Part shown: piece by piece, positions 43,198-60,294 of the stretch
Numbering within the stretch: position 1 is the stretch's first letter
Layout of the letters: each line of letters begins with the position of its first letter
IMG/VR virus record: IMGVR_UViG_3300028558_000791
Location: 186,001-250,000 of that record
Strand: one strand, 5' to 3'
DNA: 64,000 bases
Source of the DNA: a virus
Notes under the pieces: generated by a model
The model's input: only the letters and a program-made list of their open reading frames with translations
Databases searched by the model: none
Told to the model about the DNA's origin: nothing
Position numbers and translations under genes: made by a program

Positions 43198-43971
43198 ATG
43201 AAACTCCGCGAACTGCTTCAAGAAATGAAGAGAGTACAAGAAAAGATAGGCTCATCACCAGCCTATATTTGCGGAGGTACGCCCAGAGATAAGTACATGG
43301 GACAATTACAGAACATTGCTGACATAGATGTTACAACCGGTGATAAGACGGTTGATTACCTATCTCAAGAATTTTTCATTGAGTTTCGTAAGAAATACAA
43401 CGTTACTCGTAAGACAATGGAAGATGGCCACAGCACTATCTTTATCGGCAGTCTAAAAGTAGACTTCTCATCCAACTTTATGGTTCCTAACGTGGATCAA
43501 GAGTTAGCTAAGATAGGAATTAAAAATCCTTCTAACATACAGAGAGAAATGTTTAGTCGTGACTTTACGTGTAACTCTTTATTACTGACAACGGACCTTA
43601 AGCAGATTCTCGATCCAACTAAAAGAGGATTCAAAGATATCAAGGAAAAGAAAATCAGGACTTGTTTAGCTCCAGAGATTACTCTAACTTCTAATAGGAA
43701 TAGAGTTGTAAGGGCTATTTATCTAGCTTGCAAATTAGATTTCGACATAGATGATTCAATTATTGCGTATGTAAAGAAGTATCCACAAACTGTTAAGATT
43801 TCAACTGAAAAAGCCATGAATGATAAGTTGAATGAAGCTTTCTCTAGGAATCCAGAGAAGGCGGCGGAGTTAATTTCCAAGATGAATTTGTGGACTCAGA
43901 TTCCAATTACGGAAAAAGTTTATCCGTACTACATGAAACATATCAAAGGAAAAGCTAATGTCAGTAAATAA
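43198..43971 (+). CDS. RNA nucleotidyltransferase-like protein (poly(A) polymerase/CCA-adding family head)
   Basis: 257 residues. Class II nucleotidyltransferase motifs: the GG-type YICGGTPRDKYMG (about residues 23-35), catalytic DIDVTTGD, and the RDFTCNSLLLTTD block. Normally followed by an RNA-binding region to reach about 400 residues; here the protein stops shortly after the motifs, with a helical C-terminus. Family members add CCA to tRNA or poly(A) to RNA. Why it sits among head genes is unclear. It might tag RNA or modify something else. Overlaps the next gene by 14 bp. Confidence 0.8.
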   Translation: MKLRELLQEMKRVQEKIGSSPAYICGGTPRDKYMGQLQNIADIDVTTGDKTVDYLSQEFFIEFRKKYNVTRKTMEDGHSTIFIGSLKVDFSSNFMVPNVDQELAKIGIKNPSNIQREMFSRDFTCNSLLLTTDLKQILDPTKRGFKDIKEKKIRTCLAPEITLTSNRNRVVRAIYLACKLDFDIDDSIIAYVKKYPQTVKISTEKAMNDKLNEAFSRNPEKAAELISKMNLWTQIPITEKVYPYYMKHIKGKANVSK

Positions 43972-45025
43972 GAAGGGATATTTTCAAGGTGGTGGCGGAG
44001 TCAACGAACCAACGCCCGGCGAAAAGAAATACAAGTCGGATCCGGCTTTGGTTGTTCAGCCGCGCTTTGAAGAACCATTTTATCGCAACTACGATTTGTA
44101 TACAATTCCTGGTATGGAGCACATCGGCCCAGGCACCGGGTACCATGGCCTACAAAATTACGATAGCGTCCAGGAATTTCTAGAAGCAAGACGCAAGAGG
44201 ATGAAGGACCGCTACGTAGCGGATGATTCCTGGCAATTAGATTCTGGCAAACGAACTAAAGAAAATCCGGGCATCAAAGCTCGTGCCGCTATTTTTGAAA
44301 GAATTATCAAGACTGCTGGACCTAATTACGATTTAGGTAAAGGGCTCTACCAAGAGATGAGTGATGGTAAGGTTGATAGTGTAGAGGAATTTAGAGAAGA
44401 AGGCAACCATGGTCCCGGCGCTCTAATGATGGCAGATGATAATGCTGACTATATGTTACCACCTAAAGAACATGGTACCAGTATCTATAATTGGAAGAAC
44501 AGTCCTTATCAAGGAACTCCTGGTGCCAAAAACAAGAAAAAGAAGAAGGATGTCAATCATATTGATTTCCCAATTGATGATGAGATTAACCATGATGGCG
44601 AGATTTATCCAAGTGAAGAATCTTACCACAAGCCAGGATTAGTCGGACCTAGTGGTATAGATAACGTTGCCACCTTCCCAGGTGAAACGGGAGCAACTGA
44701 CTTCTCATCCTACATGAATTCAACTGATATTGCTGGTGAACACTCTTATCTACCAGAGCACGACTTAATGGATAGGGGTGACGATGCCCTCAATTTTGGT
44801 CAGGATTTGGAAGATGAACAGGGCCCAGCCAGAGGGCTTCAAGATGATGACCTTCAAAAACTTTTTAATAAGTACCTAACTCCCGATGAGACCGGTTTAT
44901 TTGGACTACCAGACGGTGTAGACCCAGAGGGCCACGATGCTGACCAGACTCAACAGGTAGAAGAGCCTTTCACCGGAACTTCCGACATAGGTACTCAAAT
45001 GTATGAGGATAAGTGGAATATCTAA
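43958..45025 (+). CDS. Head-block protein opening with the YFQGGGGVNEPTPG motif
   Basis: 355 residues. The N-terminus reads YFQGGGGVNEPTPGEKKY after six residues, the same peptide that occurs twice in the large protein at 56.6 kb. The rest is rich in Asp, Gly, Pro, Tyr and Asn, with few predicted helices, and has a short basic cluster KNKKKKKD. It looks disordered or fibre-like. Virion or scaffold-associated is the best guess. No family recognised. Confidence 0.7.
   Translation: MSVNKKGYFQGGGGVNEPTPGEKKYKSDPALVVQPRFEEPFYRNYDLYTIPGMEHIGPGTGYHGLQNYDSVQEFLEARRKRMKDRYVADDSWQLDSGKRTKENPGIKARAAIFERIIKTAGPNYDLGKGLYQEMSDGKVDSVEEFREEGNHGPGALMMADDNADYMLPPKEHGTSIYNWKNSPYQGTPGAKNKKKKKDVNHIDFPIDDEINHDGEIYPSEESYHKPGLVGPSGIDNVATFPGETGATDFSSYMNSTDIAGEHSYLPEHDLMDRGDDALNFGQDLEDEQGPARGLQDDDLQKLFNKYLTPDETGLFGLPDGVDPEGHDADQTQQVEEPFTGTSDIGTQMYEDKWNI
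43979..44020 (+). repeat. YFQGGGGVNEPTPG motif, copy at an N-terminus
   Basis: Encodes the 14-residue motif starting at residue 8 of its protein. See also 57808 and 58099. Confidence 0.9.
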
Positions 45026-45093
45026 AACCAACGATTATCATTGCATACAACCGCATATTATCATATAAAGAAAGCACTCCCAGAGGTACCTAA

Positions 45094-46176
45094 ATGACTT
45101 TACGATCAACAGCACAACAGCTATACGTCATAGACCCGTCGTCACCGGCGTCCCAGCTACCAGCACACGATGAGCACTCGGTTTCGCACATGCCTGAACA
45201 CATGCAGCATGATTTTTCCGAAGAGCTTATGGCTGGTGCCCCAATCGAAGTTTCCGAACCTGGTGAGATTGAAATCGTAGTTGAAGAACTTCCTGGCGCT
45301 CCTCCTGGCACTAAACACCCAGAACCAGAACTCGAAGTACATGATGAATCTTTGCAAGTCGAAGACGGCGAAGATAAGAAGGAAGATCCAAAAGAGACTA
45401 AGAACGCCAAATGGGATTGGTCTAAGCACGGTCCTCATGGCTTCGTAGCTTGGGTTAAGGAAAGACTTGATGGTGTTCCTAAGCACTCTGGCTATGACTC
45501 TGCCGGCCTTGAACGTGCCATGGCTTACATGGAAAAACTAGATAGCGAAATTTCTAAGGCCATGAGAATGGATCTAGATTCTGAATTGGATGCCAATCAA
45601 GTTGAAAAGATTCGCTCTCAACTAGATGATGGTTTATCTCGTTTGCGTGATCGTCTTGACAAGGTCAAAGATTCTAAGAAGTCTTCTAAGAAGCGTAAGA
45701 AGACTGCTGCTGAAATGCAACCACAAATTCAAGAAGTACTGAACAGATGGTCTGATGAAGATATCCAATCTTATGTTGTTGATGCTTCCATTCCAGGCGA
45801 AGAGTGGGATATCCAAAAGGCTATTCACCAAATTGCTAATGGTGGTGAAGAGCCAGGTTTTGAAGGCGCTTGGATTAAGACCGCACAAAAAATCTATGGT
45901 GTTGGTAATGGTGTAATGATTACTGTTCCACTTTTGATTTCTAGAATTGCAAGAGTTTGTGTTAATGGTACTGTTTCTGCAGGACATGATATCGAAGATT
46001 TGTACAATAGACAAGTTAAGAAGTGGGCTTTGAGCGAACGTGAACAAGCTGAAGTTCAACAACTATTGTTTGATATGGGATACCCACTACGTCAAGACCG
46101 CGGCTTTATGCCAGAGGATGACTTAGAAGTATTTGACACTGACAATATGGATTGGGCAGCCAACTACAGAGCATAA
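45094..46176 (+). CDS. Hypothetical head-block protein
   Basis: 360 residues. An acidic N-terminal part with His- and Glu-rich segments (to about 110), then a Lys-rich charged coil (KVKDSKKSSKKRKK near 190-205), then a folded C-terminal domain (IQEVLNRWSDEDIQSYVVDA ... GVGNGVMITVPLLISRIARV). Its start lies 68 bases after the previous stop. Possible virion protein; not recognised. Confidence 0.7.
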   Translation: MTLRSTAQQLYVIDPSSPASQLPAHDEHSVSHMPEHMQHDFSEELMAGAPIEVSEPGEIEIVVEELPGAPPGTKHPEPELEVHDESLQVEDGEDKKEDPKETKNAKWDWSKHGPHGFVAWVKERLDGVPKHSGYDSAGLERAMAYMEKLDSEISKAMRMDLDSELDANQVEKIRSQLDDGLSRLRDRLDKVKDSKKSSKKRKKTAAEMQPQIQEVLNRWSDEDIQSYVVDASIPGEEWDIQKAIHQIANGGEEPGFEGAWIKTAQKIYGVGNGVMITVPLLISRIARVCVNGTVSAGHDIEDLYNRQVKKWALSEREQAEVQQLLFDMGYPLRQDRGFMPEDDLEVFDTDNMDWAANYRA

Positions 46177-46177
46177 T

Positions 46178-46822
46178 ATGAGCAGACATCCAAGACATCA
46201 ATCTGTTGTCAGTAGACAATCTGACGCACCCGATAGTGACGACCACTGGTTAAGAGCGTTTGAGAACTCTCTTCAAAAGACCAGCGTACAGCCACGTGGT
46301 AATAGTTTATTCGAGCAGATTAACACCATCATGAATGGTAAATCAAAGTATCCATCGGTACAAGCTGCCGTTGATGATATGATGCAGCGTAGTGGTTTGA
46401 CTGACTATCTACAGACTAAAACTTCTTCTGCCGATGAAGATGAGCCTGTTAGTAAGCCAAAGAGATCAAAGAAGACTGCGCAAGCACAGGACCCTAAGAC
46501 TCCACAAGTAATTATCGAGAAGCCAAGCATTGCGCGTACTCTTGATAATATCATTGAGAACTCTAAAGGTAATTTATCCGTTCCAACTGTCATTAGTCGT
46601 TTACGCGCATTGCATGGTAGCGATGTTTCTGACAATGGTGCTTGGGAAGATGAGAGGCTCATTCGTTTAGTTAGCAATCTCAACCTAACTGCCAAGAAAA
46701 ACAACCCAGATAGCTACGATAGGTTTGATAACCTTGGCACTGGTGACCATTCTAGTAGTGAACGTGACATTGATCCATCAAATACTGATGCGTTCAACGC
46801 TTTAATGCCTGCTAAAATTTAA
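46178..46822 (+). CDS. Hypothetical head-block protein
   Basis: 214 residues from ATG 46178, one base after the previous stop (a TTG at 46133 would overlap that gene by 44 bp). N-terminus Arg/Ser/Gln-rich and disordered. Two helical parts follow (KYPSVQAAVDDMMQRSGLTD, then KPSIARTLDNIIENSKG with SVPTVISRLRALHGSDV) joined by a Lys/Asp linker. Not recognised. Ends in a hairpin overlapping its stop. Confidence 0.7.
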   Translation: MSRHPRHQSVVSRQSDAPDSDDHWLRAFENSLQKTSVQPRGNSLFEQINTIMNGKSKYPSVQAAVDDMMQRSGLTDYLQTKTSSADEDEPVSKPKRSKKTAQAQDPKTPQVIIEKPSIARTLDNIIENSKGNLSVPTVISRLRALHGSDVSDNGAWEDERLIRLVSNLNLTAKKNNPDSYDRFDNLGTGDHSSSERDIDPSNTDAFNALMPAKI

Positions 46823-46835
46823 GTGCTTTGCACTT
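46821..46835. terminator. Short hairpin between convergent genes
   Basis: AAGTGC-TTT-GCACTT, a 6-bp perfect stem with a 3-base loop, spanning the ends of the + strand gene and the - strand nuclease-like gene. Weak T-richness on both sides. Possibly a weak two-way terminator. Confidence 0.35.
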
Positions 46836-47385
46836 ACCCAGCCTGTTTTTCAGGTTCTGGCGGGTATTTTTCAGTCCATAGCTTGCTATACTTACAGTTA
46901 TAGCACAACACCTCTTTGTCTTTGCTAAGAGTTAGCGTTTCTACTCTATCACTTTTGCATTCTTTGCAGCATCCACCATAGCATTCAACAATTTTTCTTC
47001 TGTATGCCTCAGCATATTTGCTTTTGAACGGCTTATTCTTATTACAGTTGTAGCAAATCACTTTGTGACCACTCTTCTGAACAATATTGTCATACAGATA
47101 GTTAATGTCACCATTGATTGTTAACTTAGTATATTCATCTTCACCACAGTTACAGCAAGCATTACCATAAGCAAGAATGACGGCGCTTCGTTTCATACGA
47201 TAGCGCCCGTTTTGTTTTTTAGAGTAATCCACATCAGACTGATGAGACTTCTTGTCAGCCTTTTTGCGACATGGCTTGCAGATATAATAGCCTTTATTTT
47301 GGTCGTAAGTATGCCAATTTTTGAGGGTTAATGAAATGCCACATTTGAGGCATGCCTTTTTTCTTCGTTTTTTCGTGGAAGGCAT
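46834..47385 (-). CDS. Degenerate HNH-type multi-zinc-finger protein, opposite strand
   Basis: 183 residues. Six cysteine pairs: CLKC, CKPC, CCNC, CYNC, CKEC and CYNC. The middle (YGNACCNCGEDEYTKLTING ... KVICYNCNK) is patterned on phage HNH nucleases, where the corresponding place would read IDH; here it reads LTINGD, so the first catalytic His is missing. It is probably a decayed homing nuclease or a DNA-binding zinc protein derived from one. It lies on the opposite strand between the head genes and terminase, typical of mobile genes. Divergent from the terminase start by 26 bases. Confidence 0.7.
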   Translation of the reverse strand: MPSTKKRRKKACLKCGISLTLKNWHTYDQNKGYYICKPCRKKADKKSHQSDVDYSKKQNGRYRMKRSAVILAYGNACCNCGEDEYTKLTINGDINYLYDNIVQKSGHKVICYNCNKNKPFKSKYAEAYRRKIVECYGGCCKECKSDRVETLTLSKDKEVLCYNCKYSKLWTEKYPPEPEKQAG

Positions 47386-47411
47386 CTTACTGAATATACG
47401 ATCATTTTAGT

Positions 47412-49295
47412 ATGCCAAGTCTACATATTGAAAATAAAGAAATGTTCGAGAAGATGAAGAAGCAACTTGCAATGCTTGACCCTGTAACTTTTTGCGAGTC
47501 CAATTTAACATTGGAAGGAGAGCCATTCAAACTAAGTGGTAATGGATATAAGCCGTTCTCAGATATCTATAGATACATCGGAATCAAAGCATTAGAGCCA
47601 GATGCAAAACCAGTTATCTTAGTTAAGGGACGTCAGGTAGGAGCCACTACGATGGCCAGCGCCCTAGAAATGTACTTCATGGGTTCTGGATTATTTGGTG
47701 ATGGATTCCGTCCACCAATCCGTATCATTCATGCATTCCCTCAATTGGAATTAGCTGCCGCTTATTCAAAGACCAAGCTTCAGCAAATGATTAGTCAGGC
47801 TAAGATTCCCGAAGGAACTCCAGAAAACAAGGCTTCCCGCCCAAAGTCTTTCATGCAGCAATTGCTTGATCAGTCATCTCCAACTAATGACTCTTTGCAC
47901 TTCAAACAGTTTATTGGCGGAAACCATTTGTGGGTTGAGTCAACTGGTATTGATGCCGACAGAATCATGGGTCGTACCGCTGACATTCTATTCTTTGACG
48001 AAGTCCAGAAGACTACCAGCCAAGCCATCGGAAACGCGCTCAAGATTCTAACCAACGCTAAGTATGGTAGACCAACTAAGGGCGTACAAGTTTTCTTTGG
48101 AACGCCTCGTCGTAAGGGATCTGATTACCACAAGATGTGGCAGTCATCTTCTCAACAGTATTACTATTTAGGATGTGAGAGCTGTAAAGAACATTTCCCA
48201 CTATATACTCCAGGATCTGATGATTGGGAGAAAGTTTGGATTCACGGTAAAGTTGTTAAGTGCTCTAAGTGCGGACATGAACAAGATAAGCTACAAGCAC
48301 AGGAACGTGGTAAATGGGTAGCCTTTAAGAATCCAAATGACCCAGACTGTGATATGATTGGCTTTCATATTAATCAGCTTTACATGCCTAAATTCACACG
48401 AGAAGATATCGATAAGGAAAAGCCGGGCCGTCATCCAATCAATACGGAACGTGTTTTTCAAAACGAAGTTCTTGGAGAGTTTTACCAGGGCGATGCAAGT
48501 CCATTGTCTCCAGATGAAGTTCGCACCATGTGCGCTGACTTCGAGAGAAAGTTTAGCCCACGTATTCTTCCATCAAAAGGTATTAACCAATATTTTACTG
48601 TACTTGGAATCGATTATGGCGCTCGTTCCGACTTGGAGCAATTGGCCGATCCAGAAAGAGTTAAGCCGGCAGGACAGTCATACAGCACGGCTGTTGTTCT
48701 ACAAACTAAGGGCGCTCAATTGTTATCAATCGAGTTTGCTACCAAGTTCAAGCGTAATGACGTTGAAAGTAAAAAAGGAATCATTGATCAACTGATGAGA
48801 CAATATAGTATTCAGTTGGCGGTCGGAGACATTGGTTACTCCAATGACTTCTCTTCTATGTTGCATAACACGTATGGAGATAGGTATTTAGTTTCTCGTG
48901 CCCATAATAAGATTAATGACCATGTCAAATTCAATCATGAAGCATTTCCAAAAGAAATCATTTTTGAAAGAGACTTCTACATTACTGAACTTTATGATCA
49001 GATGAAGAAGGGGATGATTAGATTTCCATTTGGAGATTATGAAAAGATAGCCTGGTTGATTGAACACAGTTGCAGTATGGAACTAAAGCCATCTATTTCT
49101 AAATATGGAGATCATACAGTTCATTATGTGAAAGGTGGAACTCCAAACGACGGGTTTATGGCATTGTTGAATGCCTATTTAGCCTTTAAGTTCTTGGTAA
49201 GTAGAGGATTTACAAATAATAATCCGGCTAATCATACAGCCAAAAACCTAACCAAACCCATGGTAATGTCTGGTTATGTGCCCAGGAAGTTCTAA
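47412..49295 (+). CDS. terL: Terminase large subunit
   Basis: 627 residues. ATPase: deviant Walker A KGRQVGATT at residues 72-80 (the last Lys of the usual loop is replaced by Ala), and Walker B ILFFDEVQK with Asp196-Glu197. A zinc-ribbon insert (CESCKEHFP ... CSKCGHEQ) follows, like the lambda GpA-type group. The RNase H-type nuclease half includes LGIDYGARSD (Asp401) and VGDIGYSNDFS. It cuts concatemers and pumps DNA into the prohead. The start lies 26 bases from a divergent gene, with no clear ribosome-binding site. Confidence 0.93.
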   Translation: MPSLHIENKEMFEKMKKQLAMLDPVTFCESNLTLEGEPFKLSGNGYKPFSDIYRYIGIKALEPDAKPVILVKGRQVGATTMASALEMYFMGSGLFGDGFRPPIRIIHAFPQLELAAAYSKTKLQQMISQAKIPEGTPENKASRPKSFMQQLLDQSSPTNDSLHFKQFIGGNHLWVESTGIDADRIMGRTADILFFDEVQKTTSQAIGNALKILTNAKYGRPTKGVQVFFGTPRRKGSDYHKMWQSSSQQYYYLGCESCKEHFPLYTPGSDDWEKVWIHGKVVKCSKCGHEQDKLQAQERGKWVAFKNPNDPDCDMIGFHINQLYMPKFTREDIDKEKPGRHPINTERVFQNEVLGEFYQGDASPLSPDEVRTMCADFERKFSPRILPSKGINQYFTVLGIDYGARSDLEQLADPERVKPAGQSYSTAVVLQTKGAQLLSIEFATKFKRNDVESKKGIIDQLMRQYSIQLAVGDIGYSNDFSSMLHNTYGDRYLVSRAHNKINDHVKFNHEAFPKEIIFERDFYITELYDQMKKGMIRFPFGDYEKIAWLIEHSCSMELKPSISKYGDHTVHYVKGGTPNDGFMALLNAYLAFKFLVSRGFTNNNPANHTAKNLTKPMVMSGYVPRKF

Positions 49296-49319
49296 AGTAG
49301 TCTAAATACCGAGGTTTAC

Positions 49320-49327
49320 TGATATAT
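49320..49327 (+). promoter_or_regulatory. Proposed phage promoter core TGATATAT
   Basis: Exact octamer 48 bases before the portal ATG. It is flanked by a TCTAAAT (49301-49307) / ATTTAGA (49331-49337) perfect inverted repeat. Confidence 0.55.
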
Positions 49328-49375
49328 CACATTTAGAGTATTAGGTAGAGGGTATAGTGGAACAACAGAGGTTAC

Positions 49376-51253
49376 ATGGCTGGTATTAAAAAATCAGGTT
49401 TAGGGGAGGCTCCTTCCTTTTCAGCGAGATTCTTGGAAGGTAGATCCACTACCCCACAGGTCAGCGCCATTATGGCTCATGGCGTTTCAGGAGAGAGAAG
49501 AGTTATTCTTTCTGATGAAGTAGACCAAGGCTATTTTCGCGATGGCTCAGGCCCTAATTACAATAAGATGGCGTTAGCTAACGCCCCTACAAATGCTTCT
49601 AACGTAGTTTCATCTACTGGCGTAAAGAAATATGGACAGGCAGTTAGCAGTTCTGGTGGTATGTTTCGCGGTATTCATGGCGATACTGTCAAGCAAACCC
49701 CTGAAGTTTATTCGCCATTGTGGCTGAACAGCAACTTAAATCTTCCCCGCGACCGTGCAACTATTAATGCATGGTGTCGTAGCTTTTTCGCATTGAATCC
49801 ATTCGTGCACAATGCAATCAGTTTGCATAGCACTTATCCAATTAGCAAGCTTTCTATCAAATGTCCTAACAAGGATATTGAAAAGTTCTTCGATGATATG
49901 ATTGAAGAAATTGACCTAATGAATATCTGTATTCAAATCGCCCAAGAGTATTGGCTCTTAGGAGAAGCGTTTGTTTATGCAGAACTGGATGAAGGTAAAG
50001 GTAAGTGGAGTCGCCTACACATTCAAAATCCAGACTTCATGATTGTCAAACGTACGGTCGTAGCCAGCGAACCAATCATCATGCTTCGTCCTGATGAGAA
50101 TCTCAAGAAGATCATTTTCTCTAATCGTCCAACCGATATTGAACAGCGTAAGCAGCTTAACCAGCACATTATCGATTCTGTCAGACGCGGAGAAAACATT
50201 CCACTAGACAACTTCCACGTATCACATTTGGCCCGTAGAATTAGTCCTTACGAAATTAGAGGTACTGGACTTCCAGTCTGTATTTTCCGTCAGTTGATGC
50301 TTTTCGACAAGCTTCGTGAATCCAAGTACGCCCAGTCCGATAATATGATTAACCCATTGACTTTGGTCAAGATTGGTTCGGCCGATTACAAGCCAACCTT
50401 CGCTGACCTTGAAGCATGGAGAGGCGTATTCGAAGAAGCCCAGTACGACAAGGACTTTAAGATTTTCACTCATGAAGGTGTTGCCGTTGAAAGAGTTGGT
50501 TGGGGACAGGGTATCTATGATATCTCTGGAGACATCACTCAACTTATTAAGGAAATCTTCGTTGGTATGTTCGTTCCACCAGTAATGATGGATGGTGGTG
50601 ATACAACTACTTATGCTAACGGATCTGTAGCTCTTGACGTTCTTCGTCAGAGATACATGCAGTTTCGCAATATGATGTCCCAATGGTTGAAGACCAAGAT
50701 TTTCGCCCCAATCTCTAAGATTCAAGGGTTCTACGACTACTCTGGTGGTGAAAAGCAACTCATTGTTCCAGAAATTGATTGGAACCATATGTCTTTGTTT
50801 GATGCAGACACTTACATCAATAGCTTGGTAACTCTATCTCAGGGACAGGCTGACCAGAAGAGAGTCTCCGTTCATACTTTGTATCGTTCATTGGGTCTTG
50901 AGTATGAAGACGAAGTACGCAAGATGCGTAAAGAAAATGTTCAGAATGCAATCTCCAAGAAGGAAATGGCAGCTCTAGAATCTATGGACCTCAATGCACT
51001 ACGTGCCCTGGATGACCAGGATGAAATTCCAGAGCCAAAACAACCGGGTGCAGGTCAAGAGCAACCACTACCAGGCGAAACTCCAGGTGGAGCCCCTCCA
51101 GGCGGTGGAATGCCGGATCTTGGTGGCCTACCAGGCGGACCTCCTCCACCACCTCCACCAGCAGGTGGCCCTCCACCCCCTCCGAGTGGCGCTTCAGCGG
51201 GTCTTCCTCCACCAGGTGGCGGAGCCCCTCCAGGTCCACCTCCAGCCGGATAA
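49376..51253 (+). CDS. Portal protein
   Basis: 625 residues. Position directly after large terminase and size fit a portal. Blocks typical of portals: INAWCRSFFALNPFVHNAI, IAQEYWLLGEAFVYAELD, the RGTGLPVCIFRQLMLFDKLR region, and VGMFVPPVMMDGGDTTTYAN. The portal forms the ring through which DNA enters. The C-terminal ~75 residues are almost all Gly, Pro, Ala and Gln, a low-complexity tail unusual for a portal. No fused MuF domain. Confidence 0.9.
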   Translation: MAGIKKSGLGEAPSFSARFLEGRSTTPQVSAIMAHGVSGERRVILSDEVDQGYFRDGSGPNYNKMALANAPTNASNVVSSTGVKKYGQAVSSSGGMFRGIHGDTVKQTPEVYSPLWLNSNLNLPRDRATINAWCRSFFALNPFVHNAISLHSTYPISKLSIKCPNKDIEKFFDDMIEEIDLMNICIQIAQEYWLLGEAFVYAELDEGKGKWSRLHIQNPDFMIVKRTVVASEPIIMLRPDENLKKIIFSNRPTDIEQRKQLNQHIIDSVRRGENIPLDNFHVSHLARRISPYEIRGTGLPVCIFRQLMLFDKLRESKYAQSDNMINPLTLVKIGSADYKPTFADLEAWRGVFEEAQYDKDFKIFTHEGVAVERVGWGQGIYDISGDITQLIKEIFVGMFVPPVMMDGGDTTTYANGSVALDVLRQRYMQFRNMMSQWLKTKIFAPISKIQGFYDYSGGEKQLIVPEIDWNHMSLFDADTYINSLVTLSQGQADQKRVSVHTLYRSLGLEYEDEVRKMRKENVQNAISKKEMAALESMDLNALRALDDQDEIPEPKQPGAGQEQPLPGETPGGAPPGGGMPDLGGLPGGPPPPPPPAGGPPPPPSGASAGLPPPGGGAPPGPPPAG

Positions 51254-51274
51254 TGTTTTAAATCCGCCGAATAA

Positions 51275-51328
51275 CCCCTACTTGTGAATAATCACGCATT
51301 GTTTTAGCTATTGCGCACAAGTAGAGGG
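51275..51328 (+). promoter_or_regulatory. Stem-loop that buries the ribosome-binding site
   Basis: CTACTTGTG (51278-51286) pairs perfectly with CACAAGTAG (51316-51324), extended by CCC/GGG across a bulged A. The right arm includes TAGAGGG, the ribosome-binding site for ATG 51334. A smaller CGCA/TGCG pair lies inside. No T-run, so more likely a translational switch than a terminator. Confidence 0.55.
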
Positions 51329-51333
51329 TTTCC

Positions 51334-52569
51334 ATGGATAAATTAGCTCAAAGTAAAAGACAAACAGGTCGTGGTTTTTTCAACGAATTGCGTGAAAAGA
51401 TCAATGCTCCTGGTGCTTTCGTAGAAGGTATATTCAAACCCGAATTAAATAGGGTTATGGAATCCTTAAAAGCACTAGATGACCGTGTTCGTTCAGAATT
51501 AACCGGCAAACAAATTGGCAGTGCCACAGAGCCAGCCATCAAAGAGTCTGCTAAGAAGCTCTTGAGTGACTCTAGAGGTCTTTTCAATCGTCGTGAATAT
51601 ATGTCCGGCGTTTCTGATTTGGCCATGTTTCATAAAAAGCTTCAGGCTATTGTTAATGACATTGATAAGTTCTTTGTTGATGTGAATAAAATTCATCACA
51701 AGTTCTTATTTGATGGAGTTAAGGAAGATAAAATCAACAGACTTCGTGAACACATGGAGCCTAAAGCTGCGTCTTTAATCGCCGATCAACTTCTCAAGGA
51801 AGCTGGCCTTGTTGACTCTCTATTGAATTTCTTTACAACTCGTGGTCGTGGACTTGCTGCTTGGGAAAAGAAGTATCCTAAGGAAATTAAGGCACTTCGT
51901 GATGGTGGCTTCAAGCTGCTAGATCAAGCTGATTCAGTACTAGCTTCCACTATCTCTGTTATGAAAGATATGGCAACTGCTAGAGCTACTCGTAGACCAG
52001 ATGATTATATGGATTATGCCAATAAGATTAAGCAGGACTTCAACAAGTTTGATGCTGCATTTAAATCTTATTATCAAAATGCTGTAATGCCTTGGATGAG
52101 AATCAAGGATCAGATGGAAGCAGAATTAGCAAAGCAGCAAGCTGCGCAACAATCAAGCAATCCAAATGTAGGAAAAACTGAATTAGGTACAGACCCTACA
52201 GTACCGCCAACACCAGGTGGTCCACCTAGTGGTCCTTCAGGTGGATCTCCTATTCCTCCAATGGGTGGTGGTTTTATTAACCCACATCCAGGTGCACCAC
52301 CAGTTCCAGTTGCGGCACCTCCAGTTGAGGAAGCCGCTCCAGATACTCTTCCAGGCGGCTACCAGCCAGAGGCTAAGGTTCGTATTGCCCCAGAGCCACC
52401 CAAGGTCAGAGTTGCTCATGAACAATTCTATAAATCACTTGAGGCCATGGCCGGAGAAGATCCTCGCGTTCTGTGTGGTTACATTGCTAAATATGCTAAA
52501 TCTATTCAAGGAGATGACCCAGAGACTGCTATTTCGCTATTTTCAATCGTCAAGAAACTAAAGGAGTAA
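51334..52569 (+). CDS. Hypothetical head-block protein
   Basis: 411 residues. N-terminal ~270 residues are helical and folded (AGLVDSLLNFFTTRGRGLAA, DGGFKLLDQADSVLASTISV), followed by a Pro/Gly-rich linker (about 285-350) and a small C-terminal helical domain (FYKSLEAMAGEDPRVLCGY). Placed straight after the portal, where head proteins normally are. Its ribosome-binding site is buried in a stem. Not recognised. Confidence 0.7.
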   Translation: MDKLAQSKRQTGRGFFNELREKINAPGAFVEGIFKPELNRVMESLKALDDRVRSELTGKQIGSATEPAIKESAKKLLSDSRGLFNRREYMSGVSDLAMFHKKLQAIVNDIDKFFVDVNKIHHKFLFDGVKEDKINRLREHMEPKAASLIADQLLKEAGLVDSLLNFFTTRGRGLAAWEKKYPKEIKALRDGGFKLLDQADSVLASTISVMKDMATARATRRPDDYMDYANKIKQDFNKFDAAFKSYYQNAVMPWMRIKDQMEAELAKQQAAQQSSNPNVGKTELGTDPTVPPTPGGPPSGPSGGSPIPPMGGGFINPHPGAPPVPVAAPPVEEAAPDTLPGGYQPEAKVRIAPEPPKVRVAHEQFYKSLEAMAGEDPRVLCGYIAKYAKSIQGDDPETAISLFSIVKKLKE

Positions 52570-52570
52570 T

Positions 52571-53719
52571 ATGCCAGTCAGGGGTAAAGCCAACCTTGGA
52601 CCAAATTTCTATCCGAAATTGGTCCAGATATCCGAAGAATTGGGGATGAAACCAGAAGACCTTCTGGCTGTCATGACCTCAGAGTCTGGCTTGAATCCAT
52701 CAGCATATGAAGAAACATACAAAGGATCTGGTTTAATTGGATTTATGCCAGATACTTTGAGGGGCCTTGGCTATAAAGGCACTTGGCAAGACTTTACCAA
52801 ACTAACTGGCGAAGAGCAACTTGATTGGGTCAAGAAATTCATTCAAGGTAAAAATGGATTGATGGGTAATCGTAAGTTTACATCTGCCGGATTGTACTAT
52901 ACTGGTAACTTATGGCCTATTGCTCTAAAACTTCCTGGTGTAATTAAAGGCGATCCTAGTACTCGTATTCTAGAATCAGATCCAGAAACGGATGCAAGCG
53001 GTAAGTATAGTAAGAAGTATTTTGATCTTGGATACAAGATTAGCAAAAGTTTTGAAAGCAAAGCATATAAAGCAAATCCTCTTTTTGATCGTGATAAAAA
53101 AGGATACATCACTTATGGTGATATGATTAAGCAGACTGAGATTAACAGAAAGAATCCTGTTTATCAAAAGGCAATTGCGGAAATGGCTAAGAGCACCGGC
53201 TATCAACCTGGAAAATCAATCAACCCATCTATGCTCGCACAAAAAAATAATACACAGTCACCTTCATCGCTACAAGGAATGGATGGCATCATGGATAAAT
53301 ATATACAGGAGTTGCAGGTGGCTGCCACGTCTTATGACTTAAAGAAGTTATACAAGCGTGCCTTACCAACTCATGACGTCCTGATTCAAATTTCTGCACC
53401 AGACTATTCTAGCGCAATAGAATTCTCTCGCGTATTGACTGCGGCTTTAGACGAAGATTTACTATCATCATCTTATCCATATACAGATGGTCATCAAGTG
53501 GAAATTGAATGTTCCATCTCAGGACCAGAGAAAGAATGTTTCGCCGCAGTTCAACAGATGACCAATGCTGTAGCTGAGGCTTTCAAAGATGCAACTGCAA
53601 AAATTGGTGGTATTGCTATTAAAACCCAGCAATTTACCAATAAGAAGTCATCTTATCAACCAATCAGCCCTAGAACTGCTGATACTAACTACAGGAAGTT
53701 CCTGCTCAAATTCATCTAA
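52571..53719 (+). CDS. Lytic transglycosylase-like protein
   Basis: 382 residues. The N-terminal ~110 residues are an SLT-type lysozyme fold: LLAVMTSESGLNPSAY with the catalytic Glu38, and GSGLIGFMPDTLRGLG. The middle is a charged linker. The C-terminal ~130 residues form another alpha/beta domain (HDVLIQISAPDYSSAIEF ... VEIECSISGPEKECF) of unknown role. It probably sits in the particle and helps breach peptidoglycan at entry. No signal peptide, which fits a virion enzyme rather than a secreted endolysin. Confidence 0.83.
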   Translation: MPVRGKANLGPNFYPKLVQISEELGMKPEDLLAVMTSESGLNPSAYEETYKGSGLIGFMPDTLRGLGYKGTWQDFTKLTGEEQLDWVKKFIQGKNGLMGNRKFTSAGLYYTGNLWPIALKLPGVIKGDPSTRILESDPETDASGKYSKKYFDLGYKISKSFESKAYKANPLFDRDKKGYITYGDMIKQTEINRKNPVYQKAIAEMAKSTGYQPGKSINPSMLAQKNNTQSPSSLQGMDGIMDKYIQELQVAATSYDLKKLYKRALPTHDVLIQISAPDYSSAIEFSRVLTAALDEDLLSSSYPYTDGHQVEIECSISGPEKECFAAVQQMTNAVAEAFKDATAKIGGIAIKTQQFTNKKSSYQPISPRTADTNYRKFLLKFI

Positions 53720-53730
53720 GGAATAGCAAA

Positions 53731-54135
53731 ATGGTATCGGAAAAACAACTTTTGGACACAATTCAGCAGCTTCAAGGTTCAGGCAAAACATTTGCTGAGT
53801 TCCTGGCAGAGATTTTTAAAGATAAATTCATCGAAGTTTATGTTGGAGATTCTTATGAAGATGTAAGTACAGAACAAATCTCAACAACATATCCTGCTGT
53901 ATTTTGTGGTAAAGTTGTTGCTGCATATCGTGAATGTTTAATTCTTAGTTGCGCTTATGTTAATGGTAAGCACTTAACAATGGGCAATATGATGTTCGTT
54001 AATGAAAGAGCTATTAGAGCTTTGAATGAAGTGGATGGTAAAGGTACACTAGAAGATATGATGCTTCGTAGTAAAGAGACTTTGGATATTAAAGCGACCT
54101 TTGGGTCTGTAGAAAAGCCTGATACAAAGAAATGA
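53731..54135 (+). CDS. Hypothetical small head-block protein
   Basis: 134 residues. Regular alpha/beta pattern; core TYPAVFCGKVVAAYRECLIL suggests a small beta-rich fold such as an SH3-like or RNA-binding shape. The C-terminus is charged and short. Overlaps the next ATG by 4 bp (ATGA). No family recognised. Confidence 0.68.
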   Translation: MVSEKQLLDTIQQLQGSGKTFAEFLAEIFKDKFIEVYVGDSYEDVSTEQISTTYPAVFCGKVVAAYRECLILSCAYVNGKHLTMGNMMFVNERAIRALNEVDGKGTLEDMMLRSKETLDIKATFGSVEKPDTKK

Positions 54136-54884
54136 TCAACACCGACACGCTGCTACAACTTGCTAGTACTTATGAAGATAAGTGTTTACAGGATTTGGTA
54201 AAGGTCGCGAAAATTCGCGAATTACCAGACGGTAGCTATCGTGTGCTCTCTGAAAAGGGAAAAGAACTAGGTTCCTATAAATCTAGGAAAGGCGCAGAAA
54301 AACGTCTTCGTCAAATAGAGTTCTTCAAACACTTGGACAAATCAAAGGCTGATGATCAAGGCAATCCAATGAAGCCAATTGACTTATCTAAAGCGGATGA
54401 GTTTAGTTATTCTGCTTTGATGAGGGCGTTACGTCAACAAGCCACTCCTGAACAAGTAATTACATTTCTTAAGATTTTCAAACTACAATTCGATAGAGCG
54501 GTTAAGGGTAAAATCAATAAGCCAGAACGAGTCGCTTTACAGAATGCGGTTATCAAATTCCATAAGATTCACCCAATCAAATTAGATAAGAAGATGGTTA
54601 AGTTTGCTGCTGTTGCAGAACTTGGAAATGCTGATCAAGTTGGAACATATTTATCCGGTATTGTTAGGTTCATTCTTAATAGATTGCCACAGGATAAAAG
54701 ACCAAGGGCTACTGAGATTCTCAAGCAGAAATTTAACGTTATGAGTGAGAATGAGATTTCTGGTAAGAACATGCCAAACGCCGCTGTTTACGGTCAAGCC
54801 ATTACATTCGTTAAACACGTACTGTTCAATCAGGACGCCAGCTATGTAAGGGAAGTTCTTAACAGCCTATCGAGGAATCTATGA
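54132..54884 (+). CDS. Hypothetical protein with a small basic N-terminal fold
   Basis: 250 residues. The segment YRVLSEKGKELGSYKSRKGA and EKRLRQIEFFKHL is a compact motif found at the start of several phage proteins of unknown role. A helical remainder follows, including LMRALRQQATPEQVITFLKI. ATGA overlap with the next gene. Probably a structural or accessory protein of the virion. Confidence 0.68.
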   Translation: MINTDTLLQLASTYEDKCLQDLVKVAKIRELPDGSYRVLSEKGKELGSYKSRKGAEKRLRQIEFFKHLDKSKADDQGNPMKPIDLSKADEFSYSALMRALRQQATPEQVITFLKIFKLQFDRAVKGKINKPERVALQNAVIKFHKIHPIKLDKKMVKFAAVAELGNADQVGTYLSGIVRFILNRLPQDKRPRATEILKQKFNVMSENEISGKNMPNAAVYGQAITFVKHVLFNQDASYVREVLNSLSRNL

Positions 54885-55651
54885 TTAGAAGATTCCGAGC
54901 TGTAATTCCAGGGGTTCTGTATCGTGGCTCCGGCCCCACTCCACAAGACGTTCTCGAATTACAAGATAAATTAGGGATCAAAAAGATTGTCTCTTTAGAC
55001 CAAGAGATTGGTGAGAAAATTGATCGCGCTTGTCAAATGTTAGGTATCAATCATATCAAATTGTATATTGATCATACTAGAAAGAGTTTGTATGATTTTT
55101 TATCTCAGGATATGAAAAAACTCTTTCTAGAGGGTGGGCCAACATTTGTTCATTGCCATGAGGGTAAGGATAGAACTGGATTGGCCTGCGCTATAGTAGA
55201 ATGTAAATTCCTTGGTAAAGATCCCGAGAAAGCTATTCAAGAGGCAAAGGCTTTAGGGTTTGGTGTTGGCATAGCTCCTCAAACTACTCAGCAGTTTGAG
55301 CGTATCATTCGTCACTGCAAGCCCGATAAGGATACTAATAGTGCTGATATAGTCTCTAATGAACGAGAGTATATTGGTGATAATCGTGATAGTTTCTTGG
55401 ATGAGGGACATCAAGGATCGTTCTCTCCATACCTATCTCAGACTAAGCAAGACCCAGTGGATTCATTATACCCATCTACACTAGACCAATACCCAACTCG
55501 TCAAAATTATGATAGTCCACCATTATTCCGGCATGATCCTAGTGAGAGTGTCACATTACCTAATGTAGGGGAATATGACAACGATGCTGGTCAACGAGGT
55601 TTTGGGCCAGTGGAACGCATGGATGGTTTCTTCTCAGAGGTAGGTCATTGA
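54881..55651 (+). CDS. Protein tyrosine/dual-specificity phosphatase
   Basis: 256 residues. The active-site loop HCHEGKDRTG has catalytic Cys92 and Arg98. Upstream, VLYRGSGPTPQDVLELQDKL and the strand KIVSLDQE match the compact dual-specificity/KpsC-like phosphatase layout. The C-terminal ~85 residues are acidic, Pro/Tyr/Asp-rich and look disordered. Presence inside the head block suggests a virion-packaged or host-directed enzyme that removes phosphate from proteins or inositol-like substrates. Starts by 4-bp overlap. Confidence 0.85.
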   Translation: MIRRFRAVIPGVLYRGSGPTPQDVLELQDKLGIKKIVSLDQEIGEKIDRACQMLGINHIKLYIDHTRKSLYDFLSQDMKKLFLEGGPTFVHCHEGKDRTGLACAIVECKFLGKDPEKAIQEAKALGFGVGIAPQTTQQFERIIRHCKPDKDTNSADIVSNEREYIGDNRDSFLDEGHQGSFSPYLSQTKQDPVDSLYPSTLDQYPTRQNYDSPPLFRHDPSESVTLPNVGEYDNDAGQRGFGPVERMDGFFSEVGH

Positions 55652-56302
55652 ATGATTAAAAAGTCTTATTCCGTACAAATGAGCTATGATGTGTCTGACA
55701 GCGAAAAGCAGCAGGCAGAGAAAGCGCTATTGTATTTTAAGGCTGCTGAAAGATTCTTAATGCAATCTTCTGATCATTTGAATATTATGAAGACTCCATT
55801 TAAGGATAATCCAGATATGACGCCTGAAGATGTTATGAAGGCTCGTGCCGTCATTAGACGTTTCAGAGATAAAGCTATTGATAATTTTGACCAATTCAAA
55901 AAAGTAGCTTTTGATTGCGTTAATCTTATGCAGACTTTTGAAAGCGACACTCAAACTCTCAAACTAATGAAATCATTCATTGCTGCTATTGATGATTTGG
56001 AAGTTAGTGTTAATCAATTCTCAGAATTATTTAATGATTTGCACTCAAAAGACTTCGTCAAAAACGTAGTAACTTTCATTGAGAGTATCCAAAAGCAATG
56101 CGATGAGATTGATGAAATTATTGACGAAAGAATCAAGTCCCATATTCAAACCAATATATTGGCTAGTAGTTGGGTTGACTCAGTTAGCAATGATTTACAA
56201 ATGAAAATAGAGAAAAAGACACCATTAATCGTCGATCTCTATAATCAAAGACAAGAGCAGCTAAATGATGCTGTAGAGGAAAGGATGCCATCAGGGAAAT
56301 GA
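55652..56302 (+). CDS. Hypothetical coiled-coil protein
   Basis: 216 residues, starting directly after the previous stop. Almost entirely helical, with long heptad-like runs (VNQFSELFNDLHSKDFVKNV). Acidic, with many Asp, Glu and Lys. Compatible with a scaffold or core protein, but not recognised. Confidence 0.68.
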   Translation: MIKKSYSVQMSYDVSDSEKQQAEKALLYFKAAERFLMQSSDHLNIMKTPFKDNPDMTPEDVMKARAVIRRFRDKAIDNFDQFKKVAFDCVNLMQTFESDTQTLKLMKSFIAAIDDLEVSVNQFSELFNDLHSKDFVKNVVTFIESIQKQCDEIDEIIDERIKSHIQTNILASSWVDSVSNDLQMKIEKKTPLIVDLYNQRQEQLNDAVEERMPSGK

Positions 56303-56307
56303 AAATG

Positions 56308-56370
56308 GTAATATCGCTGTATATTAGATGAAGTTTTCGGTCGTAGATCGGAAAATTGTAGCAATATTAC
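56308..56370 (+). promoter_or_regulatory. Nested inverted repeats in a leader
   Basis: GTAATATCGC (56308-56317) pairs with GCAATATTAC (56361-56370) at 9 of 10 positions, and TTTTC...GAAAA pairs inside. It occupies the 102-base gap before the small gene at 56405. The right arm carries the CAATATTAC motif also seen at 29319 and 36708. Confidence 0.5.
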
Positions 56371-56404
56371 ATTATACCTGTGTGGTCTCCCAATTGGAGA
56401 GTTT

Positions 56405-56560
56405 ATGTTCATTAAACACGGTGATGGAAAAATACTAGACGTTGTTGACGGAGAAGAGCTAACTGACGCTCAGAAGAAAGCTGTCAAAGATCGTTCTAAA
56501 GACCTCGTCAAACAATCTGACGATTCAACTGATTCTTCCAAGAAGAAGTCAGGGAGCTAA
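56405..56560 (+). CDS. 51-residue hypothetical protein
   Basis: A short, well-placed gene (GGAGAG upstream) starting MFIKHGDGKILDVVDGEEL and ending Ser/Lys-rich (DSSKKKSGS). It lies 5 bases before the protease-scaffold gene, in the same operon. The opening looks like a small folded beta strand pair; the end is disordered. No family recognised. Confidence 0.68.
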   Translation: MFIKHGDGKILDVVDGEELTDAQKKAVKDRSKDLVKQSDDSTDSSKKKSGS

Positions 56561-56565
56561 AACGA

Positions 56566-59500
56566 ATGCCCATTATTAAACTAGGCGAAGCCCACGAAAT
56601 TAAACTGGAGAACATGGAGTCATGTCTTCCTGAAGTGAGTGCTGAGGTCTTAGATAACTTTAGGAAGTTTGCAACCAATCTAAAGAAGATTGCTCCTAAA
56701 GCTGAAGACTTCCTCTATTTCTCTGCTGTTATGATGCATGCTGCTGAAGCATCTGCGCTTAACGAAGATGGTACACCAAAGCTAACCCTCAAAGGCGAAC
56801 CAGTCCAAGTAGGATGGGATACTAGTGGTGGTACATGGAAATGGGCATCTAATGACCCTAACATTAAGCCATATAAGAATTCTAATGGAGACATATTTCC
56901 AGAAGCAGAATTAACCAAAGCTTACAAGAAGTGGAAGCACAAGCCTCTATGCGTGGATCATAAATCGAGTTCGGTTGACCATGTTAGAGGTTTTATCGTT
57001 GATACTTATTACGACCGCTCACTCAAGAGAGTGATTGCATTGTGCGCCTTAGATAAGGCCGGATTCCCTCAATTAGCTAGACAAATTTCAACAGGCGTTT
57101 CTAACTGTGTATCCATGGGTACAGCAGTAGGAAGAGCCATCTGTTATGACTGCGGTAGAGTCGCTCGTGCTGAGCAAGACTTCTGCGCTCATATGAAGAA
57201 CAAGACTTGCTACGGTGAAATCAACGTAGACCTCAATCCAATTGAGTTATCTATCGTTGTAAATGGTGCAGACCCTAGAGCCAACATCAAACACATCATC
57301 GCCGCAGCAAACACAATGAACACTTACCTAGAGAATCGCGCTAAGGAACTAGAAAAAATAGCCGACCTCAAGTTTAGTGCTCAATTCAGTGTGTCAGATC
57401 TTAATGGTGACGAAGGTGGAGGAAGTGCTCAATTTAATGTTGATGCTACTGACATTAACCAGTTCAAGAGCGAATTAGACGAAGCATTCCGCAAAGTCCA
57501 AGAGTTCAAGAATGTAAAAATTTCTGAAAAAGATACTAATTCTACAGCATCTAATCAGACGTCGGGTTCGATCGCCATGGATGAAGGTGCACCCACGGAT
57601 TCTGGATTGGCTCTCCAAACTCCGCAAGCCATTAGGCTTGCATCCGCTGATGTAGAGGCGGAATCATTGGCTGAGCTTCAGCAAGTAACTGCATCAATTG
57701 AAGCTACGTTAGGTCAAATGAAGAAGAGCTTGGATAAGTTAGCAAAAACTTCTACTACTAAAAAACAAGAGGAAAACATGTCTGGATCAAAAGAAATCAA
57801 TAAGCAAGCTTATTTCCAGGGTGGCGGTGGCGTTAATGAACCAACTCCAGGCCAAGTTAAATATCCAAAGGACGGTCTTAACGAGCAACTTCGTGAACAC
57901 GAAGATAAGCACATGACCGGTCAACCACCTTTCCCTGAGGTTGGTCCAGTGGATGGAATGCATCCTTCTCCAGCTTCGGCTGATCCTTCTGACGAGCTTG
58001 CTCGTAAGAAGATGCTCGCTAGAGCAGAAGCAGAAGAGCGTGCCCTCAAGCGTAACGCCATTGTCAATATGGCCAAGGACGCATTGAAGAGCAAGGAAGC
58101 TTACTACCTCGGTGGTGGCGGTGTAAACGAGCCAACTCCAGGTAAAGTAAAGTATCCAAAAGACAAGCTCAACGAAGAGCTACGTGACTACGAAGATAAG
58201 CACATGGTTGGACAGCCTCCATTCCCAGGTGTTGGTCCAGTCGACGGCATGCACCCTTCTCCATCATCTGCTGATCCAAAGGATGAATTGAAGCGTAAGC
58301 AAATGCTCGCTCGTGCACAACTACGTGCCAGATTTGTCAAGGCCGCTAACAGTAACGGCACTCAGAACAGAGCCAGAAGCGCTTGGGAAGTATTCCTTGG
58401 TGACAAGCTATTGTTGACCGCATCTGTTGACGAACTCTCCGGTGGAAACACTGACGTTCTATATGACTCAATTGCTACTAAGGACTTCGGAGCCAAGTTG
58501 ATCGAAAAGGTCAAAGTTCAAGGCGCTGATGCAGTAAGCAAGCTAATTAAGAAAGCCCAAGGCGCTCCAGGCGCACCACCAGCCGGCCCTCCAGCAGGTG
58601 ATCCATCCAGTGCTCCACCTCCAGGCGGTGACATGGGTGCAGGCGCTCCAGATGCTGGTCCTCCAGCAGAAGACGCAGGCAAGTCTGGTGACCCAAAGCA
58701 AAGCGCAGTAGAACTCGCTGAGAAGGTAAGAGACCTAAGCTCTGACCTAGTAGAAGCAGTTCGTGCCCTAACCGGTGAACAAGCCGAAATGGGTGGCGCA
58801 GGCCCAGCACCAGATGCAGGTGGAGTTGGTGGCCCAGCCGGTGGTCCAATGGCCGCTGATGACCAGGATGCAAAGAAGAAGAAAGACTCTATGGAGTCCT
58901 CTGCTAACTTTAGCACCTCAACTCTCAACACCTTGAGAAAAGAATTGAATGGCGCACTTACTCATGCAATGAAGGAAGCTATTGCAGAGCTAACCGAACA
59001 CCAGCAAGAATTAGACATGATTGCCGGTATGTACGACAAGGGTGCTGTAACTCAATCTAACCAAGACTTTGTTGGAACTATCGTAGAAGACGCATTGAGC
59101 GAAGCTAAGACTGCTGTTGCAGACGGCTTTAAGCTAATGACCGCCTTCGTCAAGTATGCTCGTGGTACCAAGGCAATTGTCAAGCGTGCTGAGATTGAAT
59201 CAGAACTTGAATCACTAGCCGATGGAGACACTATGAGCGACAAGAAGGACAGTCACTCCGCAGACGGCGGTGACTTGATGGGACTAATTAATGACACCAA
59301 TGCAGACTTGGACGCAGTTCAAGAGATGATGGGTGACGACCAGGATCACGATCTTGGCGGTGAACTTGATGGCGATGGCCTAGCTGGACTCTTTGAAGAG
59401 GGTGGCGAAGGTGAAGAACATGGTCACGAGGAACCACTATTCGAAGGTTTGGCTGACGACAACGATCTCACTTTTGAACAAGGTGAGAAAGTACCACCAG

Positions 59501-60294
59501 AGTTGGCCGGAAAGAAGTTAACTATGGCATCATTTGATGATAGAGCAGGCCGTGCAGCTCTCAGGGCCAAGTTGGCTGCTGACGCTCTCGGAAAAGAAGA
59601 CGACGGAGAAGTTCAGGATATGTCCAAGCAAAAGTGGAGCGATATGCTAGATGCTGCTGACAAGCACTCTGACGGTCAAACCGAATTGGACGTCAAGCCA
59701 TCCGACAGCCTCGGATTGGTTGAGACCCTACCAGAAGTAAACAAGGCCATGATGGACGTTGCTAAAGCTCCACCAAAGGTTCGTAAGGAAGCAGAAGTAA
59801 TTCAGAGATTAGTTTCTGAAGGCAAGCTTGATCCAAATGATGTTGATGCACTCGCATCTTACGGATTGGATAAAGAAGCCGTTGCTTACTGGAAGAAGTA
59901 CTTCGGTGAAGTTGATGGTGGCAGTGAATTCGCCAGTGAGATGGTGAAGGAACATGTCAAGGCAGCTATGGAAGAAGAACTAAACACCTTCAGAGTCAAG
60001 CTAGCCCGTGCTTACGAACTAACTTACGATATGGTTGACCGTGGCCTATGCCGTCACGACAGAGTCACCATCTCTGATCAAGTTGACCAGATTATGAGAT
60101 TTAACGATGATGCATTCGAATCCTTGAAGAAGGTCGTTGCCCGTCATGAACCAGGTAATCTACGCAAGTCTGCTGGCGCAATGCCACAGGTTGGTCTCAG
60201 AGTTGACGGAGAATTCTCTCCAGCTCAAGCAGTCGAGGATGACTCTTATACCCAATTGTCAAGCCTCTTTGGTAACAAAAAGGGTGTGTTCTAA
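56566..60294 (+). CDS. Prohead-protease-like N-terminus fused to repeat-bearing scaffold-like region
   Basis: 1242 residues. The N-terminal ~250 residues resemble phage head-maturation proteases: WKHKPLCVDHKSSSVDHVRG (candidate catalytic His), VSNCVSMGTAVGRA (candidate Ser), then CYDCGRVARAEQDFCAHM and LSIVVNGADPRANI. Then a helical linker, two 73-residue repeats starting near 415 and 512 that begin with a Y-x-x-GGGGVNEPTPG motif, a Gly/Ala/Pro-rich stretch, and a long helical, acidic C-terminus. Protease plus scaffold in one gene, with a likely internal start at 57778, recalls fused protease-scaffold systems. Exact family uncertain. Confidence 0.65.
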   Translation: MPIIKLGEAHEIKLENMESCLPEVSAEVLDNFRKFATNLKKIAPKAEDFLYFSAVMMHAAEASALNEDGTPKLTLKGEPVQVGWDTSGGTWKWASNDPNIKPYKNSNGDIFPEAELTKAYKKWKHKPLCVDHKSSSVDHVRGFIVDTYYDRSLKRVIALCALDKAGFPQLARQISTGVSNCVSMGTAVGRAICYDCGRVARAEQDFCAHMKNKTCYGEINVDLNPIELSIVVNGADPRANIKHIIAAANTMNTYLENRAKELEKIADLKFSAQFSVSDLNGDEGGGSAQFNVDATDINQFKSELDEAFRKVQEFKNVKISEKDTNSTASNQTSGSIAMDEGAPTDSGLALQTPQAIRLASADVEAESLAELQQVTASIEATLGQMKKSLDKLAKTSTTKKQEENMSGSKEINKQAYFQGGGGVNEPTPGQVKYPKDGLNEQLREHEDKHMTGQPPFPEVGPVDGMHPSPASADPSDELARKKMLARAEAEERALKRNAIVNMAKDALKSKEAYYLGGGGVNEPTPGKVKYPKDKLNEELRDYEDKHMVGQPPFPGVGPVDGMHPSPSSADPKDELKRKQMLARAQLRARFVKAANSNGTQNRARSAWEVFLGDKLLLTASVDELSGGNTDVLYDSIATKDFGAKLIEKVKVQGADAVSKLIKKAQGAPGAPPAGPPAGDPSSAPPPGGDMGAGAPDAGPPAEDAGKSGDPKQSAVELAEKVRDLSSDLVEAVRALTGEQAEMGGAGPAPDAGGVGGPAGGPMAADDQDAKKKKDSMESSANFSTSTLNTLRKELNGALTHAMKEAIAELTEHQQELDMIAGMYDKGAVTQSNQDFVGTIVEDALSEAKTAVADGFKLMTAFVKYARGTKAIVKRAEIESELESLADGDTMSDKKDSHSADGGDLMGLINDTNADLDAVQEMMGDDQDHDLGGELDGDGLAGLFEEGGEGEEHGHEEPLFEGLADDNDLTFEQGEKVPPELAGKKLTMASFDDRAGRAALRAKLAADALGKEDDGEVQDMSKQKWSDMLDAADKHSDGQTELDVKPSDSLGLVETLPEVNKAMMDVAKAPPKVRKEAEVIQRLVSEGKLDPNDVDALASYGLDKEAVAYWKKYFGEVDGGSEFASEMVKEHVKAAMEEELNTFRVKLARAYELTYDMVDRGLCRHDRVTISDQVDQIMRFNDDAFESLKKVVARHEPGNLRKSAGAMPQVGLRVDGEFSPAQAVEDDSYTQLSSLFGNKKGVF
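57768..57780 (+). promoter_or_regulatory. Internal in-frame ribosome-binding site and ATG
   Basis: AGAGGA (57768-57773) lies four bases before ATG 57778, in frame within the large gene. It could produce a second product (57778-60294, 838 residues) that begins just before the first repeat. Confidence 0.5.
57808..58026 (+). repeat. First 73-residue repeat beginning AYFQGGGGVNEPTPG
   Basis: Encodes residues 415-487. Sixty of 73 residues match the second copy by my hand alignment; also shares its first 14 residues with the N-terminus of the protein at 43958. Confidence 0.92.
58099..58317 (+). repeat. Second 73-residue repeat beginning AYYLGGGGVNEPTPG
   Basis: Encodes residues 512-584, exactly 97 residues after the first copy. 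Ends with MLARA as the first copy does. Confidence 0.92.

Follow-up and report, generated by a model that had tools for sequence, protein, structure and literature searches.

The products of two genes in this giant phage share a conserved 14-residue peptide that most likely acts as a common address label for the growing head. Both genes are named here by their start positions in the window, the 64,000-nucleotide stretch that was analysed (186001-250000 in a virus record of 480,838 bp), and both lie, with all the features described within them, on its + strand. Gene 43958 (43958-45025) encodes an acidic, mostly disordered protein of 355 residues (pI 4.6), a candidate internal-head-protein-like product, and gene 56566 (56566-60294) encodes a 1242-residue protease-scaffold fusion. 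Our reading, to which we give a probability of about one half, is that 56566 is a two-product scaffold gene and that the peptide at the head of the scaffold is reused as a core-targeting tag resembling the capsid targeting sequence (CTS) of T4. Two in-frame products would be made, the full-length fusion and the scaffold alone from ATG 57778, with the motif as a linear docking peptide at the N-terminal head of the nested scaffold. The same peptide at the N-terminus of the 43958 product would then dock where the scaffold docks, and the docked protein would be brought into the prohead core.

The protease-scaffold gene and its internal start signal

The 56566 product is a head maturation protease joined to a scaffold-like tail. 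Residues 34-247 (56665-57306) are homologous to gp19 of Bacillus phage G (E=1e-19; profile E=4.4e-41) and residues 105-213 match head maturation proteases (phrog_18299, E=1.8e-12), placing the protein by sequence match in the head maturation (prohead) protease family. The remainder was predicted to consist of long helices together with acidic stretches that are disordered, a make-up expected of a scaffold, and a helical C-terminal segment (59971-60150; pLDDT mostly 69-89) matches the C-terminus of phage G gp21 (profile E=6e-8). A fold search of the PDB with the low-confidence model of the fusion protein gave nothing significant. In phage G the protease and scaffold-like genes are separate, gp21 lying downstream of the protease gp19, whereas in 56566 the two are fused; the gene order of portal, protease, scaffold-like protein and major capsid protein is the same in both. 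The GGGGVNEP motif described below is absent from the gp19 and gp21 sequences of phage G.

The head-gene neighbourhood includes a terminase (47412), a portal (49376) and the protease (56566), with the major head protein (phrog_2522) about 6 kb past the end of the window. Also inside this head gene block is a gene (54881-55651) for a protein with a cysteine phosphatase signature (HCHEGKDRTG), and directly 3' of the scaffold gene is one (60319-61029) for a low-complexity protein with repeated DDDNDARKKKDSDSDSS units. A scan of a genome collection gave three matches, two of them unrelated and one a true scaffold relative (L271); its contig, 383 kb long, was binned as a Chitinophagales MAG, which is a weak hint to the host.

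Within the fusion gene an ATG at 57778 (Met405) is preceded by a Shine-Dalgarno-like AAGAGG (57767-57772) and opens a putative nested scaffold ORF (57778-60294) of 838 residues (89.5 kDa, pI 4.8). The comparison covered 41 homologs that are nearly complete and share, for the most part, 36-93% identity with the 1242-residue protein of the window; these are related to one another, and the conservation counts from them are not independent. Met405 is invariant in all 41, and pairing with the 16S tail before it is -5.4 kcal/mol or better in 41/41, so that every homolog passes a threshold of -5 kcal/mol. Other well-conserved Met residues have such a site in no more than 28% of members. The codons under the Shine-Dalgarno are skewed as well: the Glu at -3 from Met405 is encoded by GAG in 34 of 37 cases, against 26% overall, and synonymous change is near zero for the Gln at -4 (0.05 of expected) and the Glu at -2 (0.01). 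Among the windows with the lowest synonymous change there are only two troughs, one of them at these codons, and the Shine-Dalgarno is retained even where the encoded residues differ. A conserved in-frame internal start with its ribosome-binding site, as in nested genes of the lambda C/Nu3 type, is thus present as a conserved signal.

Could the methionine and its purine-rich codons be conserved for protein reasons, with a single fusion protein being made? Sites that resemble ribosome-binding sites are common in purine-rich coding DNA, and 13% of the other internal Met codons (n=1430) also reach -5 kcal/mol or better. Set against the invariance of Met405, the skewed synonymous codons and the persistence of the Shine-Dalgarno over differing residues, this explanation appears very unlikely. 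An in-frame scaffold of 838 residues probably starts at ATG 57778 inside the protease gene, and it is from these signatures that we infer use of the start.

The fusion gene also holds a nucleotide-conserved element (57517-57570, codons 318-335; core GATACTAATNNTNNNGCATNTAATCA at 57532-57557), located 220 nt upstream of the internal ATG. Synonymous change in its lowest windows is about 0.1 of expected, rare TCG serine codons are kept, about 31 of the 41 homologs preserve the core, and the element occurs once in the 480-kb record. Conservation here (AAAGATACTAATNNTNNNGCATNTAATCA.TCGTCGGG) exceeds that at the ribosome-binding site. No match to a sigma-70 promoter was found; the element might act in cis on the nested scaffold, perhaps as an internal promoter or a binding site.

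The shared peptide in two protein families

In the 43958 protein the motif, YFQGGGGVNEPTPG, occupies residues 8-21 (43979-44020). It occurs twice in the 1242-residue protein, as AYFQGGGG at residue 415 (copy 1, 57811-57852) and as AYYLGGGG at residue 512 (copy 2, with the variant YYLGGGGVNEPTPG, 58102-58143). The preliminary description had reported the motif in both proteins, and this was confirmed, with the three sites exactly at 43979, 57811 and 58102; also confirmed was that each copy in the larger protein starts a 73-residue repeat (57808-58026 and 58099-58317) with 60 of 73 residues matching. Copy 1 begins 10 residues after the internal ATG and copy 2 lies 97 residues further in. The N-terminus of the putative nested scaffold, counted from Met405, resembles that of the 43958 protein, and a new point is that copy 1 probably marks the N-terminus of an internally initiated scaffold.

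The 43958 and 56566 proteins have in common a stretch of 26 residues, 19 of them identical (73%, E=2e-9), and 500 shuffles of both proteins produced zero common 8-residue words. A scan for further copies, proposed in the preliminary description, was extended to the whole 480,838-bp record as a degenerate search with two mismatches allowed, and found these three sites only. Together the E value, the shuffles and the scan rule out a chance match. At the DNA level the three copies differ from one another at 9-11 of 42 nucleotides, mostly silently, with the same codon at only 4-5 of 12-14 shared degenerate residues. Since silent sites differ, there is no support for a recent copying of DNA from one gene to the other, by duplication or by gene conversion, and this divergence indicates that the peptide, not the DNA, is what is kept.

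An exact DNA-pattern scan for the motif across 2.9 million viral contigs (IMG/VR) matched 116 stretches, and those inspected all belonged to the two families, with the exception of one short chance frame (L132). When a motif profile was run over all frames of the loci fetched for the two families, only these families exceeded noise. Profile searches of the fetched loci and of 70 records returned two families only, and in that range the motif was not seen as a tag spread over many virion proteins of one genome. The major capsid protein has no motif, and the literature searched did not contain its exact string. None of the 41 aligned scaffolds has lost copy 1. What stays constant in divergent scaffold copies is the aromatic pair, a Gly, E/T-P-T-P-G and K-Y, while their Gly run varies in length and sequence (GAGG, GTEEP, NGDGNN). 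As the Gly run is replaceable, cuts near GGGG, for which the preliminary description had suggested looking, are not specially favoured. That description had also raised the prospect of the motif being absent from relatives; it is present in dozens of them. Its broader proposal of a common handle fits the conservation of the motif, its occurrence in two gene families of viral contigs and its position in segments predicted to be disordered, a fit that does not extend to any one specific role.

The motif is the best-kept part of the 43958 family (mean majority 0.91 across residues 8-30) and is N-terminal in the unfused genes. Conservation continues to about residue 120, followed by a body of variable length and content. 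For the 43958 protein itself AlphaFold2 gave a mean pLDDT of 44, and disorder was predicted. A second conserved module (NYDLY..GPGTG..Y.SV..FL..RRKR) lies at 44069-44215, with a weak further copy at 44324-44398. In relatives it reads NYD..G.G.Y..M.KYKSV..F..KRKR or NYD..GPGTGLY.NM.KYKSV.DFL..KRKR, and it persists after loss of the motif. This second module is found on different protein bodies in different relatives, in one protein per genome: it heads unrelated bodies in L231 and L236, and is joined directly to a nucleotidyltransferase in L200, L201 and L202. In the relative L166 / L179 the 43958-type gene apparently has GTG as its start codon, and a single in-frame TAA interrupts it.

Many 43958-type loci were retrieved by the motif itself, and motif conservation among those is overstated. 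Loci were also fetched via the nucleotidyltransferase so that the motif played no part in their selection; in 8 of 8 the next gene or fused part carried the motif, either exact or changed at one or two residues. In further records searched with a 43958 profile, the motif was missing from about 13 of the 42 that had a recognisable 43958-type protein (hand count), roughly a third; relatives that lack it include L184, L185, L186, L200, L201, L202 and L220, and further L221, L222, L231, L235, L236 and L237. The motif is therefore not essential in that protein. Among genomes with the GTEEP form in scaffold copy 1, the 43958 protein has the same form in G002 and G010, keeps GGGG in G001, and has lost the motif in G009, G018 and G019; in G011 the form is not common to the two proteins. 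This pattern is suggestive of linked evolution, with genomes too few and lineages not independent.

Gene 43198 (43198-43971, + strand) encodes a nucleotidyltransferase-like protein of 257 residues, a predicted enzyme with a poly(A) polymerase head domain whose match to PF01743 (E=5.9e-13) is above the curated cut-off. In about a dozen relatives the nucleotidyltransferase and the 43958 gene are fused in frame with the motif at the junction, and the 43198 product is 59-69% identical to the N-terminal part of fused ORFs. As the motif is internal in such fusions, a free N-terminus is not required. The phage has two nucleotidyltransferases, the short head-domain protein before the 43958 gene and a full-length CCA-type enzyme by the major capsid gene (L203:7859-9103, about 257859-259103 of the record, - strand).

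Possible processing and scaffold-only roles of the peptide

The main alternative is that the phage's own head maturation protease cuts at the motif, copies 1 and 2 serving to part protease from scaffold and the 43958 copy to remove a short propeptide or split the nucleotidyltransferase fusion. Its location, both where the protease domain gives way to the scaffold domain and at the junction with the nucleotidyltransferase, in segments predicted to be disordered, would suit such a role, and the prohead proteases of large phages take N-terminal propeptides off many head proteins (PMC10052503). However, the conserved stretch around the motif is about 20-25 residues long, far above short known sites such as AXE in SPN3US (PMC10052503), and the variable Gly run, the major head protein without the motif and the nucleotidyltransferase fusions that lack it at the junction all argue against cleavage as its function. 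We regard this account as unlikely; T4 CTS peptides serve docking and are cleaved too (PMC9026906), and a processing role could hold in addition to docking.

The other possibility is that the motif is needed within the scaffold only, for example for scaffold-scaffold contact, and that the 43958 copy, taken over as a linker, plays no part in head assembly. The universal retention of copy 1 in aligned scaffolds, set beside the loss of the motif in many 43958 relatives, is what this would predict. Where the 43958 copy is present, however, no part of its family is more conserved, and it has diverged silently with the peptide kept, which shows that the peptide is under selection there as well. A purely scaffold-internal role seems quite improbable to us, and we prefer docking of both proteins through the shared peptide.

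Comparison with known systems

Herpesvirus UL26/UL26.5 are nested protease-scaffold genes, and in these, as in lambda C/Nu3, P2 and the 56566 gene, a single reading frame has the protease at its N-terminal end and the scaffold at its C-terminal end. For lambda and P2 a single gene for protease and scaffold is described in PMC8508860, which cites Shaw and Murialdo 1980 for the lambda C/Nu3 overlap. In the lambda C/Nu3 type the scaffold alone is made from an internal start, and such a start is proposed for 56566 on the basis of sequence. Compared with lambda C/Nu3, the proposed 56566 scaffold is large (838 residues) and has two repeated motif modules at its head. The likeness to lambda and P2 is one of gene layout, no homology to their proteins being shown.

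In T4 the internal proteins, whose bodies otherwise diverge, carry a 10-residue capsid targeting sequence that is later cleaved (PMC9026906; PMC3012670). The peptide described here may be comparable to the CTS of IPI-III, being short, N-terminal and common to proteins with otherwise variable bodies, and core targeting is proposed for it; per genome only the scaffold and one 43958-type protein carry the motif, and the bodies vary between genomes. In T4, gp21 cuts the CTS at a known site, and its likeness to the motif is one of arrangement, with no sequence resemblance claimed. Two further differences from T4 are that the peptide is present on the scaffold itself and that the copy in the 43958 family is internal in some cases. 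This analogy, together with gene neighbourhood, would place the 43958 product in the head.

We consider it a tentative and rather doubtful extension that a clade of uncultured giant phages tags a modular internal protein, with its second module, and a fused nucleotidyltransferase for packaging and delivery to the host. If true, the head peptide of the nested scaffold would be a cargo-loading tag, by which an enzyme enters the head and reaches the host. Little is understood of how the largest phage heads are assembled, and nearly all the proteins in them lack names. The combination of a conserved internal start with a scaffold-shared peptide would provide a directly testable rule for building and loading such heads, and in uncultured giant phages the motif may serve to pick out candidate packaged proteins by sequence.
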